The notes beneath the pieces were generated by a model. The model saw nothing but the letters and a program-made list of their open reading frames with translations, was not told the origin of the DNA and did no database searches. The translations under genes and the position numbers were made by a program. Source: Halobacteriales archaeon QS_4_70_19 (GTDB lineage Archaea > Halobacteriota > Halobacteria > Halobacteriales > Haloarculaceae). Taken from it: a stretch of 64,000 bases of DNA. The DNA is taken from NCBI GenBank assembly GCA_003020985.1, contig PXRM01000028.1, positions 57,596-121,595 of the forward strand, in the 5' to 3' direction. The first letter of the stretch is position 1. Every line of letters begins with the position of its first letter. Shown here in pieces: positions 2,335 to 46,189 of the stretch.

Positions 2335-3261
2335 ATGAGCATCGGTGACGTCGCCCCGGTCGAGGGCGTCCCGGACTGCTACTACGTGGACACGGGGATG
2401 TACGGGACCGAGAAGTACGGCGCCGTCTACATCTACGACACCGAGCGCCCGGCGATGATCGACGCGGGCATCGGGAAGAACTACGACCTGCTGCTGGACG
2501 CGCTCGACGAGGTCGGCATCGCCCGCGACGACCTCGACCTGCTCGTCCCGACGCACGTCCACCTCGACCACGCGGGCGGAGCGGGCTTTCTCGCGGACGC
2601 GTGTCCGAACGCCGAGGTGTTGATCCACGAGCGGGGCGCGCGCCACGTCATCGACCCCGAGCGGCTCTGGGAGGGGACGAAGGCGGTGGTGGGCAGGCAG
2701 ATCGACTACTACGTCGAGCCCGATCCCGTCCCCGACAGCCGGGTCACGCCACTCGTCGACGGGGAGACCATCGACCTCGGTGACCGCGAACTGGATGTCC
2801 GCGAGGCGCCCGGCCACGCCCCCCACCAGCACGTCCTCCACGACGCGGACGCGGACGCCGTCTTCGTGGCCGACGCGGCGGGCATCTACGTCCCCCAGCT
2901 GGACGCCGTCGAGCCGACCTCGCCGCCGTCGAACTTCGACTTCGAGCAGTGCATCGAGGACGTGCGCCTGCTCCAGCGGCTCGACGCGGAGACGCTCTGC
3001 TACGCCCACTTCGGCCCGGCGCCGGCGGACGGCCTGCTCACGGAGTTCGCCGACGTCCTGACCGACTGGGTGGAGTCCATCGCGGAGGCCCGCGTCGAAC
3101 TGGAGGACGACGAGGCCGTCGTCGAGCGGTTCGTCGAGGCGACCGACATGGACGAGGTGTGGAGCGAGCGCAAGGCCCACACCGAGACCTCGATGAACGT
3201 CCGCGGGGTGCTGGGCTACCTCGACCGGCGGGAGGCCGCGGCGGACGCGGACAGGGCGTGA
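2335..3261 (+). CDS. MBL-fold metallo-hydrolase
   Basis: THVHLDHAGGAGFLA metal-binding motif; internal ATG at 2335 preferred over upstream ORF start. Confidence 0.9.
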   Translation: MSIGDVAPVEGVPDCYYVDTGMYGTEKYGAVYIYDTERPAMIDAGIGKNYDLLLDALDEVGIARDDLDLLVPTHVHLDHAGGAGFLADACPNAEVLIHERGARHVIDPERLWEGTKAVVGRQIDYYVEPDPVPDSRVTPLVDGETIDLGDRELDVREAPGHAPHQHVLHDADADAVFVADAAGIYVPQLDAVEPTSPPSNFDFEQCIEDVRLLQRLDAETLCYAHFGPAPADGLLTEFADVLTDWVESIAEARVELEDDEAVVERFVEATDMDEVWSERKAHTETSMNVRGVLGYLDRREAAADADRA

Positions 3262-3334
3262 GCTGAGGGGAACAGGGCGTGACCCGGGGCGGACACGGCG
3301 TGAGTCGGGGGAGACAGGGCGTGACCCGGGGGTG
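3251..3334 (+). repeat. Four tandem 21-bp imperfect repeats (consensus ACAGGGCGTGACCCGGGGGNG) overlapping the stop codon of the MBL gene
   Basis: Units begin at 3251, 3272, 3293, 3314; each carries gcgTGA in the MBL reading frame. Confidence 0.85.
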
Positions 3335-3420: not shown

Positions 3421-5331
3421 ATGGCGGCTGGAACGAGTACTGGGCTCTATCTCGTCGCGGCCATCATCGGCATCGGAGTCGTCGCGCAGGTGCTGTCCGA
3501 CCGCTTCGAGGTGCCCAGTATCATCTTCCTCATCGCTGCCGGCATCGCCCTCGGGCCGGAGGGGCTCGGCCTGGTGACCCGGGAGACGTTCGCCGGGTCC
3601 CTCCCCTCCATCGTCGGGCTAAGCGTCGCCATCATCGTCTTCGAGGGGGCGTTCCACCTCCGGCTGGAGAAGTTCCGCGAGACGCCGGCCGCGACGACGC
3701 GGCTGGTGACCATCGGCGCCGTCATCGCACTGCTCGGGACCGCCGGCGCGGTCAAGTTCGCGTTCCCGGACACCTCCTGGGAGTTCGCCTTCCTCATCGG
3801 CGCGCTGCTGGTCGCGACGGGCCCGACCGTCATCACCCCCATCATGGAGGTCGTCCCCGTGCGCGACCGCGTCGAGACCGCTCTGGAGACGGAGGGTATC
3901 GTCAACGACGTGACCGCCGCCATCCTCGCGGTCGTCGTCTTCGAGGTCATCGTCACGGGCGGGTCGACCCCCTCGGAGTTCCTCCAGCTGTTCGTCGAGC
4001 GGCTCGGGACGGGGATGGTCATCGGGACCATCGTGGCCGGGGTGCTCTACTACGCACTCCGGTACGTCGACCTGTCGCCGGGGAACGCCCCGCAGAACGC
4101 CCGGCTGCTGGTGCTGGCGGGTGCACTCGTGGCGTTCGCGGCGGCCGACTTCGTCTTCGCCGAGGCCGGCGTCGCCGCGGTCGCCGTCGCCGGCGTCGTG
4201 CTCGGCAACCTGGACGTCCCCTACGAGGATGACATCTCCGAGTTCAAGGGGGACATCACGCTGCTGGTCCTCTCGTTCGTCTTCATCGCCCTGGCCGCCC
4301 TCCTGCGGTTCGAGGACCTCGCCAGGCTGGGGCTGGGTGGCGTCTTCGTCGTCGTGGCGGTCGCCGTCGTCATCCGGCCGGCGCTCGTGTTCCTCGCGAC
4401 GATCGGCGACCGCTTCACGTTCCAGGAGCGCCTGTTCATGTCGGCCGTCGGGCCGCGCGGCATCATCCCGGCCTCCGTAGCGACGCTGTTCGCGGTCGAG
4501 CTGCAGAGCCGGGCCGACGAGCTCCGGGCCGCCGGTGAGATAGTCCAGGCGGCCCAGCTCGACGCCGGTGCGACGCTGCTGGTCGGGACGGTGTTCCTGG
4601 TCATCCTGGCGACGGTCGTGTTCGAGGGCGGCCTCGCCCGGTACATCGCGGAATTCCTCGACGTGATACCCATGCGTGTAATCATCGTCGGAGGCGGACA
4701 GGTGGGCAGAACCCTCGCCGACCGCCTCGAAGACAGAGGGGAGAACGTCGTCATCGCCGAGGTCGACGAGGACGCGGTGGAGCTGGCCCGCAACCAGGGT
4801 CACACGGTCCACATCGGCGACGGGACGGACACGGACGTCCTCCGGTCGGCCGGCGCGGACAACTGCAGTATCCTCGTGACCGCCACCGGTGACGACGACG
4901 CCAACCTCCTCACGGCACAGCTCGCAAAGAGCAAGTTCGACATCGAGACGGTGATGGCCCGCGCCAACAACCCCGACAACGTCGAGGCGTTCGAGGACCT
5001 CGGGGTGCGGACCATCTCCTCGGCGGTCGCCACGGCACAGGCCATGGACAACGCCATCGAGCGGCCGGCGCTCGCCCAGTGGATGGGCGAACTCGGCCGT
5101 TCGGGCGACGTCCAGGAGATCGAGGTCACCTCCGAGGAGCTGATCGGGCGCCCCGTCCGCGAGGTGGGGCCGGAACTCCCGAGCGGCGTCCTCATCGCGC
5201 TGGTCGCCCGCGACGGCGAGAGCCTCGTGCCGGCGGCCGACTTCATCCTCGAGGAGGGCGACTGCATCACCCTCATCGGGAACCGGGAGGCCGTCCGGGA
5301 CGCGATGGAGTTCTGCCACCCCGGGGAGTAG
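3421..5331 (+). CDS. NhaP-type Na+/H+ (cation:proton) antiporter with C-terminal TrkA-N/TrkA-C domains
   Basis: Multiple TM segments, then RVIIVGGGQVGRTLADRLEDRGENVVIAEVDED (TrkA-N) and TrkA-C-like tail. Confidence 0.93.
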   Translation: MAAGTSTGLYLVAAIIGIGVVAQVLSDRFEVPSIIFLIAAGIALGPEGLGLVTRETFAGSLPSIVGLSVAIIVFEGAFHLRLEKFRETPAATTRLVTIGAVIALLGTAGAVKFAFPDTSWEFAFLIGALLVATGPTVITPIMEVVPVRDRVETALETEGIVNDVTAAILAVVVFEVIVTGGSTPSEFLQLFVERLGTGMVIGTIVAGVLYYALRYVDLSPGNAPQNARLLVLAGALVAFAAADFVFAEAGVAAVAVAGVVLGNLDVPYEDDISEFKGDITLLVLSFVFIALAALLRFEDLARLGLGGVFVVVAVAVVIRPALVFLATIGDRFTFQERLFMSAVGPRGIIPASVATLFAVELQSRADELRAAGEIVQAAQLDAGATLLVGTVFLVILATVVFEGGLARYIAEFLDVIPMRVIIVGGGQVGRTLADRLEDRGENVVIAEVDEDAVELARNQGHTVHIGDGTDTDVLRSAGADNCSILVTATGDDDANLLTAQLAKSKFDIETVMARANNPDNVEAFEDLGVRTISSAVATAQAMDNAIERPALAQWMGELGRSGDVQEIEVTSEELIGRPVREVGPELPSGVLIALVARDGESLVPAADFILEEGDCITLIGNREAVRDAMEFCHPGE

Positions 5332-10940: not shown

Positions 10941-11025
10941 GCCCCCGGCTCCGGCGGCTGGCGCGACGAGTCTTGCGGTTCGGCTGTCACGACCGTCGGC
11001 CGTCCCGTGCCACCGCGCTCACTCA

Positions 11026-11105
11026 TACGGATTACGCTACGTCATTTCCACATCGACCGTCCGCACACTGGCGGTCGTCGTGGGAAACAGTTAGCGTAAT
11101 CCGTA
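11026..11105 (+). repeat. 80-bp palindromic element, copy A, flanked by TCA/TCA
   Basis: TACGGATTACGCTA...TAGCGTAATCCGTA perfect 14-bp terminal inverted repeat plus internal inverted repeat TTTCCACATCGACCG/CGGTCGTCGTGGGAAA; two related copies at 36799 and 44997. Confidence 0.93.
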
Positions 11106-11633
11106 TCAGGCGACCTGGAGTTCGTTGCCACAGACGTTGCAGTAGACGACCATCCCGTCGTCCGGCTCGCGAACGCCGTGGCTGGTGATTCCGTCGCACT
11201 CGCTGCAGGGGGCGAACGACTCCAGCGCCTCCCAGTCGTGTCGCGAGTCCGGTGCCGCGATGGCGAGTCCGACGACCTGGCCGTCGGACCTGTTCCGACC
11301 GCACTGGAACTGCCCCGGCGGGAAGCGGATCACCTCGCCGGCGAACACCTCCACGGCCTCCGTCTCCGGCCGCTCGCTCGCGTGCCCCTCGGCGTGGTCC
11401 TCGTCGGGCTCGGGCCCCACGTCGAACGTGGCGGTGCCCTCCACGATGTAGAACACCTCCTCCTGGTCGTGGTGGGTGTGGAGGCCGCCGGAGAACTGCT
11501 CGCCCGGGGAGAGGTCGAACCGGACGACGGTCACGTCCTCGGCGTTCAGCGCGTCCGTGACGGGCCGGCGGTCCTGGTTGACCCCCATCGGATGCGGGTC
11601 CTCCCGTACGTCGTCGATGGCGATGTGCTTCAT
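11106..11633 (-). CDS. Cupin-domain protein with C-terminal Cys-containing segment
   Basis: GGLHTHHDQEEVFYIVEGTATFDVG cupin motif; APCSECDGITSHG...VYCNVCGNELQVA C-terminus. Confidence 0.88.
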   Translation of the reverse strand: MKHIAIDDVREDPHPMGVNQDRRPVTDALNAEDVTVVRFDLSPGEQFSGGLHTHHDQEEVFYIVEGTATFDVGPEPDEDHAEGHASERPETEAVEVFAGEVIRFPPGQFQCGRNRSDGQVVGLAIAAPDSRHDWEALESFAPCSECDGITSHGVREPDDGMVVYCNVCGNELQVA

Positions 11634-36090: not shown

Positions 36091-36312
36091 GGTTGGGCGC
36101 GTCCGTCGTCGTTCGGAACCAACGCGGGGGGGTGTATCGCTCTTACGGTCGAACGGGTCGGGCGGCCGCTCCGCTCTGGTCGTCGCGGGGGTCCTCGCTC
36201 CGGACCAAACTATTTTGCCATTATCAATATGAGGGCCTGTTCACTCCTAACGGGTAGGACGCGTGACAGACGATTAATATACCGCCGTCTGTCGCTGCTC
36301 GTTCGCGCAACC

Positions 36313-36798
36313 ATGATCTCCACGCTGACGTCGCTCACGAGGTACGTCGGGCGGTTGTTCACACACCTCCGTGAGTCCCTCGGAGGCGACCACGACGACA
36401 GCACAGATGCCAGCTCCGCCAGTGACTCCGGGCCGACAGCCCCGCCGGCGGAGCCAGAACCCACCACACCCGCGACGCCCCCGACCCCCGGCGAGGGGAC
36501 GCTCCTCGCCGACGGGCGCGGCGACGAGACCCTGAGCCGCTCGGAACTCGCGGGCGTCACCGGACTCCGGCCGGACCGTTACGTCCAGCAGCTCCTCGCC
36601 GAACACGGCGGCCGTCTGCGACAGCGCGAGGTGAGCGAGCTGACGCGGCTCTCGGCCTCCACGACGAGCCGGCTCCTCTCGGAGATGGAGGACGACGACC
36701 AGGTCACTCGCGTCTCCGTCGGTCGCGAGAAGATCGTCTGTCTTCCCTCTGCGGCTCCCGAGATCAGCGCCGGCCCGCCGACCGACCAGGTAGCCTGA
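36313..36798 (+). CDS. Winged-HTH transcriptional regulator-like protein
   Basis: LAEHGGRLRQREVSELTRLSASTTSRLLSEMEDDDQVTRVSVGREKIVCLP. Confidence 0.8.
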   Translation: MISTLTSLTRYVGRLFTHLRESLGGDHDDSTDASSASDSGPTAPPAEPEPTTPATPPTPGEGTLLADGRGDETLSRSELAGVTGLRPDRYVQQLLAEHGGRLRQREVSELTRLSASTTSRLLSEMEDDDQVTRVSVGREKIVCLPSAAPEISAGPPTDQVA

Positions 36799-36878
36799 GA
36801 CGGATTACGCTACGTCCTTTCCACATTGACCGCTTGCTCTCGGGCGGTCATCGTGGGAAACAGTTAGCCTAATCCGTA
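36799..36878 (+). repeat. 80-bp palindromic element, copy B, flanked by TGA/TGA
   Basis: GACGGATTACGCTACGTCCTTTCCACATTGACCGC...GCGGTCATCGTGGGAAACAGTTAGCCTAATCCGTA; same length and sequence family as 11026-11105. Confidence 0.93.
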
Positions 36879-37923: not shown

Positions 37924-38091
37924 CGGCGCGCCGCGGGCGCGCCGTTCACCGGCCGGAGCAACCGGCGGGAGCGAAGGCCGGCAGCGTTTTTTGCATGTTT
38001 TTATTTAGGTGGTTCGCCGGCAGCGCCGGCGGACGAGTAGCTGGCCGGCGCAGCCGGCCAGCCGGTGCCCGCAGGCGTGGCGAAGCCGCGC
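37924..38091. repeat. Cluster of four GC-rich short-loop hairpins in a convergent intergenic region
   Basis: CGGCGCGCC-GCG-GGCGCGCCG (37924-37944); CGCCGGC-AGC-GCCGGCG (38015-38031); GCTGGCCGGC-GCA-GCCGGCCAGC (38040-38062); GGCGTGGC-GAA-GCCGCGCC (about 38073-38091). Confidence 0.8.
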
Positions 38092-44524: not shown

Positions 44525-44820
44525 GAGTCCGCCAGGAAATTGAATGTAGCATGGAGCGGCGCCCCTGCCCTTCCCCGGGTCGCGCGAGCCTCCCTTGCGG
44601 TCGGCCACGCGCTCCCGGCCCGTGGATTGCTCGGCTGGCGGGTTCCGGGACCAGAAAGCGCGCTCGCGCTCCAGCCGTGGAGGCCGCGAGCGAAGCGAGC
44701 GTGCCGGAACACCCCCAGCGCGAGCGCGGGGAGGTGTGGGGACACGAGCGCCCGCCGGAACCACCACGCGCACACGCTCGGGGCGACAGGCAACAGGGCG
44801 GGACTGAAAGGGGCCGCCCG

Positions 44821-44843
44821 GCTGGCCGGCTCCGCCGGCCAGC
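44821..44843. repeat. Triloop hairpin GCTGGCCGGC-TCC-GCCGGCCAGC
   Basis: 10-bp arms identical to the hairpin at 38040-38062, different 3-nt loop. Confidence 0.85.
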
Positions 44844-44870
44844 GAATAGATTGTCCGCGAAGCCGACGAT

Positions 44871-44958
44871 CCGCCTCGACCCCGCCCGGACGAAGTAAGG
44901 ACCGCAGGGCGCCGCAGGCGCTCGAGGACCGCAGCGAGGTCCGGCGGGTCGAGGCGGG
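44871..44958 (-). repeat. Hairpin element copy Z (arms CCGCCTCGACC(C)CGCC(C)GGAC, inverted orientation)
   Basis: Plus-strand CCGCCTCGACCCCGCCCGGACGA (44871-44893) pairs with GGTCCGGCGGGTCGAGGCGG (44939-44958); minus strand carries CCTCGCTGCGG and CTTACTTCGTCCGGG. Confidence 0.75.
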
Positions 44959-44996
44959 TACAGAGAGAGCGGGCGAGAGCGTTGTATGGCGACTCG

Positions 44997-45076
44997 TACG
45001 GATTACGCTACCTGTTTCCCACGATGACCGCCTGAGGGCAAGCGGCCAATGTGGGACGGACGTAGCGTAATCCGTA
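44997..45076 (-). repeat. 80-bp palindromic element, copy C (inverted), flanked by TCG/TCA
   Basis: Reverse complement TACGGATTACGCTACGTCCGTCCCACATTGGCCGC...GCGGTCATCGTGGGAAACAGGTAGCGTAATCCGTA aligns to copies A and B over full length. Confidence 0.93.
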
Positions 45077-46189
45077 TCAGTCCGCTGCCTTCGTTTCCTC
45101 GAGGACCGCCTCGTCCAGTTCGACGCCCAGCCCCGGCTTCTCGGGCGCGCGGATGTAGCCATCCTCGTGCTCGAAGCCCTCCTCCAGCATGAACGACCAG
45201 ACGTCCGGCGTCCAGGGCGGCTCCATCGGGTACTCGCACCAGTCCGAGCCGGCGACCGTCATGGTGTGGAGGTTGGCGGCGAAGCCGAGCGCGTTGGTCC
45301 AGGTGTGAGGGACGAACTTCGCGCCGAACTCCCGGGCCATCGCGGCGACCTCGACGCCCTGCTTGATGCCGGTCGCGAGCGCGGCGTCGGGCTGGAACAC
45401 GTCGAGCGACTCGTGCTTGGCGAACTCGCGGAAGTGGTGGGTGCCGTTGTTGAACTCCCCGCCGGCGATGGGGACATCCACCTTCTCGCGGAGCCGGCCG
45501 TAGGCCCGGTAGTCGTGGCGAGGGAGGGGCTCCTCCAGCCAGCGGACGTTGCCGACTTCCTCCAGCCCGCGGGCGAACGCCACGGCGTCCGCGAGCGACC
45601 ACGTCGTCTCCTCCTCCATCACGCGGACGGCCCAGCCCTTGTTGGCGTCGACCATCAGCGGGAGATCCGGGAAGTGGTCGCGGATCTCCTTCACCATCTC
45701 GATGTGCTCGACCTCCGTGACGCGGAGCTTGACCGCCTCGAACCCCTCGTCGATGCGGGCCTGGATGTAGTCGACGCGCTCGTCGGCGGGCCTGTACTCG
45801 CCCGTGGAGGCGTAGCAAGGGATGTCGGCGGGCTCGGCGCCCAGCAGCTCGTAGACGGGCTTGCCGGCGTCCTTTCCGATGATGTCCCAGAGCGCCATCT
45901 CCAGATGCCACGGGCGCGGCCCGACCAGGTTGACGGTGTCGAGCTTCCGGAGGATGCCCTCCACGTTGTGCGGGTCCTCGCCGGTCAGGAACAGCGAGAG
46001 CTGGTCGCCGTACTGGAGCCCGCCGGCGAAGGAGGGGCTCGCGGCGTGGCCCGTGATGCCCTCGTCCGTGTGGATCTCGAACAGTTCGAGTTCGTGCGTG
46101 CTCTGCGGGTAGCCCGGAATCCACGTCGGGTAGAACATCCCGTCGACGGCGCCGTCGAGGTGGGTCTGCTCGATGCCGGTGATTTGCAT
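45077..46189 (-). CDS. Mandelate racemase/muconate lactonizing enzyme family (enolase superfamily) protein
   Basis: RPWHLEMALWDIIGKDAGKPVYELLG; LMVDANKGWAV; PIAGGEFNNGTHHFREF. Confidence 0.9.
   Translation of the reverse strand: MQITGIEQTHLDGAVDGMFYPTWIPGYPQSTHELELFEIHTDEGITGHAASPSFAGGLQYGDQLSLFLTGEDPHNVEGILRKLDTVNLVGPRPWHLEMALWDIIGKDAGKPVYELLGAEPADIPCYASTGEYRPADERVDYIQARIDEGFEAVKLRVTEVEHIEMVKEIRDHFPDLPLMVDANKGWAVRVMEEETTWSLADAVAFARGLEEVGNVRWLEEPLPRHDYRAYGRLREKVDVPIAGGEFNNGTHHFREFAKHESLDVFQPDAALATGIKQGVEVAAMAREFGAKFVPHTWTNALGFAANLHTMTVAGSDWCEYPMEPPWTPDVWSFMLEEGFEHEDGYIRAPEKPGLGVELDEAVLEETKAAD

Follow-up and report, generated by a model that had tools for sequence, protein, structure and literature searches.

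The 80-bp sequence that directly follows the stop codon of a winged-helix gene in a haloarchaeal draft genome (2.84 Mb, 46 contigs, 82% complete) is, very probably, a copy of a haloarchaeal mobile element, MITE-like and non-autonomous, that relies on a DDE-type transposase supplied in trans. We infer the DDE step, because no autonomous copy was found. The window, i.e., the whole stretch of 64,000 nucleotides that was analyzed, contains copies A, B, and C of the element, and copy B is the one that follows the winged-helix gene:

11023..11025, minus strand: distal copy of the target-site duplication of copy A (TCA)
11026..11105, plus strand: 80-bp element copy A, with TCA/TCA flanks
11106..11108, minus strand: target-site duplication copy of copy A (TCA), which serves as the TGA stop for a gene of 176 codons on the minus strand
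36229..36798, plus strand: host gene of copy B, encoding a 189-aa DUF7343 / IclR-type winged-helix protein and ending at the target TGA
36796..36798, plus strand: gene-side target-site duplication copy of copy B, which is the TGA stop of the DUF7343 HTH gene
36799..36878, plus strand: 80-bp element copy B, with terminal inverted repeats (TIRs) whose first base is G and not T, an inner imperfect inverted repeat, and a tetraloop
36879..36881, plus strand: distal target-site duplication copy of copy B (TGA)
44994..44996, minus strand: distal target-site duplication copy of copy C, decayed to TCG
44997..45076, minus strand: 80-bp element copy C, in inverse orientation, with TCG/TCA flanks
45077..45079, minus strand: target-site duplication copy of copy C (TCA), which is the TGA stop of the gene at 45077-46189 (370 aa)

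At copy B, GTAGCC TGA is followed by GACGGATTACGCTA...TAGCCTAATCCGTA (80 bp) and then by TGA again. When the sequence was reread, the position given to this copy in the initial annotation, with TGA on both sides, proved correct to the base. The accompanying claim that the duplicated 3 bp are the stop codon was borne out as well, and holds for most copies in the genome. The two differences from copy A that had been described, C to T in the left arm and G to A in the right arm, are both present; the two copies come from separate subfamilies, and their loops differ too. The initial G of copy B is a private change, the consensus being T. The sequence 3' of the hairpin is TGAGACGG, with no T-run. 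The window also contains a 21-bp tandem repeat of three to four units at 3247-3330 (GGGGCGGACAGGGCGTGAGC-like) and, at 38007-38065 and 44818-44876, an inverted GC-rich pair (76%) in or near intergenic DNA, with small palindromes such as GGCCGGCTCCGCCGGCC.

The search of the genome with the element identified 31 copies, far above chance (E = 5e-36 for the 80-nt match), plus one remnant. All 31 agree in the outermost 12-14 bp of each end; 28 are 80 bp long, one is 79 bp, and two are 78 bp. Without any condition being imposed on the flanks, an identical TGA or TCA was found on both sides of 26 copies, while the remaining five have TAA, TCG, or GCA on the gene-distal side only and an intact copy on the gene side. 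Counted against the TGA strand, the two orientations of the element stand at 15:16, and near-identical copies lie beside TGA and beside TCA, in either orientation, both in this genome and in Halomicrobium katesii. As in MITEs, the copies are short, non-coding, and dispersed, with TIRs of 13-14 bp, and they have target-site duplications, as attested by the 26 exact TSA duplications and by the empty sites described below. A 19-bp end remnant was observed beside TCA at about positions 3658-3676 of locus L032 (G000:C31:8657-8675), where the upstream reading frame apparently stops inside the remnant.

Empty sites were found for two insertions. The gene at copy C (45077-46189, minus strand) has orthologs 90-92% identical in four congeneric genomes. 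One of these orthologs (L248, 92% identical) is a natural empty site, reading GAGGAC TGA GAC without the element, where the window reads GCGGAC TGA (80 bp) CGA GTC, with CGA as the decayed form of the distal TGA. The other case is a nested one in another genome (L066), in which one element lies at a TGA within the right-hand TIR of another, and the uninterrupted counterpart of this site, CAGTGAGAGC, occurs in L044. These two empty sites (L248 and L044) prove insertion with a 3-bp duplication of TGA. The duplication therefore has, as in elements mobilized by DDE enzymes, a fixed length (3 bp) and an origin in the target, as given by the orientation test and the empty site.

To describe the sites of insertion, genes were called with a simple codon-usage caller trained on 400 kb of the genome plus the window, and the same DNA served as background. 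With this automatic caller, at least 24 of the 31 copies in the genome fall precisely where a gene has its TGA stop. The caller missed three further stops that are backed by homology: those of MetX (called out of frame), of an alpha/beta hydrolase, and of a short zinc-ribbon-like protein, this last case being weak since its Pfam matches are below the cut-off. Given these three and one copy at a contig edge, stops account for around 27 of the 30 copies that can be assessed. To state that every copy is at a stop codon would be too strong, because copies L009 and L030 of this genome have no recognizable stop at the insertion site and because 59 of 118 copies in a wider sample are at stops.

The consensus of the insertion site is a 9-bp palindrome, GWC-TSA-GWC, and is the same in insertions away from stops. 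Haloarchaeal genes often end in GAC TGA, the commonest gene end being given as GAC TGA G. The resemblance of the target palindrome to this gene end means that the element will often land on TGA stops. Relative to non-coding CTSAG sites, stops are nevertheless in excess among insertions, with 24:5 against 64:72 in the genome (odds ratio 5.4, p = 4e-4) and 59:46 against 53:133 in the collection (odds ratio 3.2, p = 5e-6). When background sites were weighted with a position weight matrix built from the non-stop insertions, the expected fraction of stops was 0.47 in the genome and 0.24 in the collection, while the observed values are 0.83 and 0.56. The target sequence accounts for part of the stop-codon bias, but not for all of it. 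Stops that have a tandem gene no more than 20 nt away are avoided in the genome (0/13 vs. 67/170, p = 0.002) and in the collection (2/34 vs. 85/285, p = 0.002), which looks like selection against polar effects. A stop codon is no requirement for insertion, since a relative of the element lies inside the coding sequence of a PF01609 transposase in Halomicrobium katesii, at CTTGAG (L227, G158:C1 near 25.9 kb, positions 1453-1538).

The folded element has three helices: a symmetric internal loop separates the outer helix from the middle one, a second, small internal loop separates the middle helix from the inner one, and a short loop caps the inner helix. The folding energy is -41 to -54 kcal/mol, with z of about -7 to -10 relative to shuffled sequences. 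Inside the TIRs, the inner part forms a second, imperfect inverted repeat. The bases that face each other at positions 16/65, 18/63, and 22/59 are hardly ever paired, in this genome and in relatives alike, so the left and right arms are distinct. This fits an element made of two dissimilar transposon ends fused head to head.

The paired substitution between copies A and B had been taken to suggest that the stem is maintained, and this claim stands only in part. Between subfamilies, the arms do covary strongly. In the inner helix, among 73 distinct relatives, changes on both sides were found at eight of the nine pairs, and the helix is replaced wholesale between subfamilies while still being paired. 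Paired cells amount to 93% in these relatives, compared with 81% in shuffles, and pairing between subfamilies is 88% in register, compared with 18-45% when the arms are slid, both comparisons being uncorrected for relatedness. The T-A form of the stem difference itself is common to 7 of the 28 full-length (80-bp) copies, these seven being from one subfamily, and the C-G to T-A change is thus one ancestral event. Within the genome, private substitutions are alike in the two classes of columns (21 in 52 stem columns and 9 in 28 unpaired columns). Eleven of the private stem changes disrupt a pair and ten still allow a standard or wobble pair; for none is there a compensating private change in the opposite arm. 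Hence, a stem maintained for a host function such as termination is contradicted within the genome: stem columns change like unpaired ones and their substitutions accumulate uncompensated (11 breaks, none rescued), the element is found in either orientation, no T-run follows it, and no Rfam family matches it. Symmetry kept by transposition is a better reading than a stem that functions in place.

A transcription terminator, or a hairpin stabilizing mRNA 3' ends, selected at each site, would fit a hairpin that lies right against the stop codon, is far more stable in its fold than shuffled sequences, and has arms that covary between subfamilies. We regard this explanation as very unlikely. Besides the uncompensated stem changes within the genome, as frequent as those in unpaired columns, the T-run and the fixed orientation of intrinsic terminators are missing (15:16), and there is no enrichment at convergent or tandem neighbors. 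The hairpin is lacking at the orthologous site of congeners and from four congeneric genomes; nested (L066) and within-gene (L227) copies exist. In Rfam, no family exceeded the gathering score for the element. Even less probable is the site-specific recombination of a small circular element with a TGA core, which would make the flanking TGAs copies of the core. The strict 3-bp TSA and the imperfect palindrome with conserved mismatches do recall folded recombination sites. Yet near-identical copies stand at TGA or TCA in both orientations, in the genome (15:16) and in H. katesii, so the duplication is copied from the target and the core is not borne by the element. A target-derived duplication favors a 3-bp staggered DDE cut over recombination at a TGA core.

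The element might also be moved by a domesticated enzyme encoded by the host, as RAYT moves REP, in which case no autonomous element with these ends would exist. This we think rather unlikely. In the genomes examined, no single element with an end pair more than about 110 bp apart was found, despite around 80 to 240 ends and near-identical copies in some of them, as this explanation would have it; absence from drafts under strict end patterns is, however, weak evidence, and the 3-bp duplication and TIRs suit an ordinary transposase from another element. A more ambitious version holds that the palindromic target is tuned to gene ends, insertion at TGA stops being a built-in safe harbor and not a by-product of selection, and that these elements are a widespread haloarchaeal orphan class of around 80 bp moved by a resident host-encoded enzyme; taken together, these propositions are unlikely.

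Under the MITE-like reading that we prefer, a DDE-type transposase acting in trans would recognize both ends, make a 3-bp staggered cut centered on the target palindrome, and paste the element in. A gene hit at its stop retains its own TGA, and its protein is therefore unchanged. Insertions that disrupt coding sequences or fall in tight operons would be purged by selection, and an inserted copy would then drift neutrally. We propose that subfamilies retain symmetric arms because a copy without this symmetry can no longer move. Neutral decay of inserted copies, together with selection on mobile copies to stay symmetric, fits the observed substitutions.

The pattern used to search for relatives consisted solely of degenerate terminal repeats, a TGA at each flank, and a gap of 42-62 bp. 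Relatives with the same TIR, length, and target-site duplication occur in at least 112 genome stretches, and the titles listed are all haloarchaeal; the hosts include Haloarcula, Halorhabdus, Halapricum, Halomicrobium, Halosimplex, Natrialba, Natrarchaeobius, Natronolimnohabitans, and Halostella. From 80 of the at least 112 matched loci, we retrieved 87 elements, of which 63 are exactly 80 bp long and 17 are 79 bp. At least one strictly intact copy is present in 59 of 400 genomes of the class, across 25 of 86 genera, and the reversed-pattern control gave none. In some genomes the ends number about 80 to 240, and some have around 100 copies. Variants of about 108 bp (L169, L171, L175) have only the outer 26 bp or so in common with the 80-bp form, which may be the minimal end recognized by the enzyme. 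Among the viral contigs of IMG/VR there was no full element, the two single-end matches being chance matches in coding sequence, and the plasmids of PLSDB contained no element.

TIR scans of the genome itself, nine relatives, and eight named genomes, using strict end patterns on drafts, revealed no autonomous copy. In the genome, the 12-mer of the TIR is confined to the 80-bp copies. End pairs 170-1370 bp apart do exist, and those that were opened are neighboring, nested, or IS-interrupted copies of around 80 bp. The 20 apparently lone ends are all complete, decayed, or truncated copies of this size. The ends found in G363, a genome that is 99% complete and has near-identical copies, are all parts of units of around 80 bp, as are the ends opened in Halomicrobium katesii among the matches listed. 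No transposase locus of PF01609 or PF13586 is flanked by a matching end pair. A candidate autonomous transposon at about 1042-3156 of L238 (G158:C1 near 1.564 Mb) turned out to be an IS with ends GAGGGTGTCATAGAA inserted in a copy of the element. At L227, as noted above, the element has gone into a transposase gene.

For this family, common as it is in haloarchaea, we found no description in the open literature searched, and searches of open-licence papers turned up no account of insertion into stop codons. By landing on a stop codon and leaving the gene with a stop of its own, the element clearly illustrates, in nature, an insertion made harmless by the choice of target. As a strong hairpin directly follows the stop of many genes, mRNA 3' ends may be affected. 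The GWC-TSA-GWC target and the ends of around 26 bp would suit a simple transposition assay and could possibly serve as a tool to tag gene ends in haloarchaea.

Several known systems resemble the element in part. The REP/BIME sequences of bacteria, with their RAYT, are short, palindromic, intergenic, and in high copy number, without an autonomous copy bearing the same ends; they have a GTAG-type tetranucleotide at the foot of the hairpin and no target duplication. The 80-bp element differs from these bacterial sequences in lacking a GTAG-type foot (its TIR starts with TACGG/TAGTG) and in having long TIRs and a 3-bp duplication. IS5-family subgroups and PIF-Harbinger elements make 3-bp duplications of the TNA type. 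The T-N-A duplication is common to them and to the 80-bp element, but no IS5-type transposase among the PF01609 and PF13586 loci has the element's ends. Prokaryotic MITEs, including those of Haloquadratum walsbyi (PMC3119063), are alike in being short, non-coding, and multi-copy, with TIRs, target duplication, and, for the 80-bp element probably, movement in trans. Unlike them, the 80-bp element has no parent transposon with matching ends in the genomes scanned, keeps a size of around 80 bp over many genera, contains a second inner inverted repeat, and in its own genome is mostly on stop codons. The nearest published description that we found is that of the MITEs and small mobile repeats (SMRs) of Haloquadratum walsbyi (PMC3119063). 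These SMRs, namely SMR-A of around 110 bp and SMR-B, which includes the 80-bp HqIRS41, have TIRs unrelated to known transposons and an enigmatic mobilization, and are said to lack target duplication and to insert into other mobile elements (PMC3119063). The likeness lies in the size of 80-110 bp, the TIRs without kinship to known transposons, the enigmatic mobilization, and the haloarchaeal host. The SMRs are set apart by their description, in that the 80-bp element duplicates TGA (a 3-bp TSA). It also targets mostly gene ends, with only rare nested cases (L066, L227).
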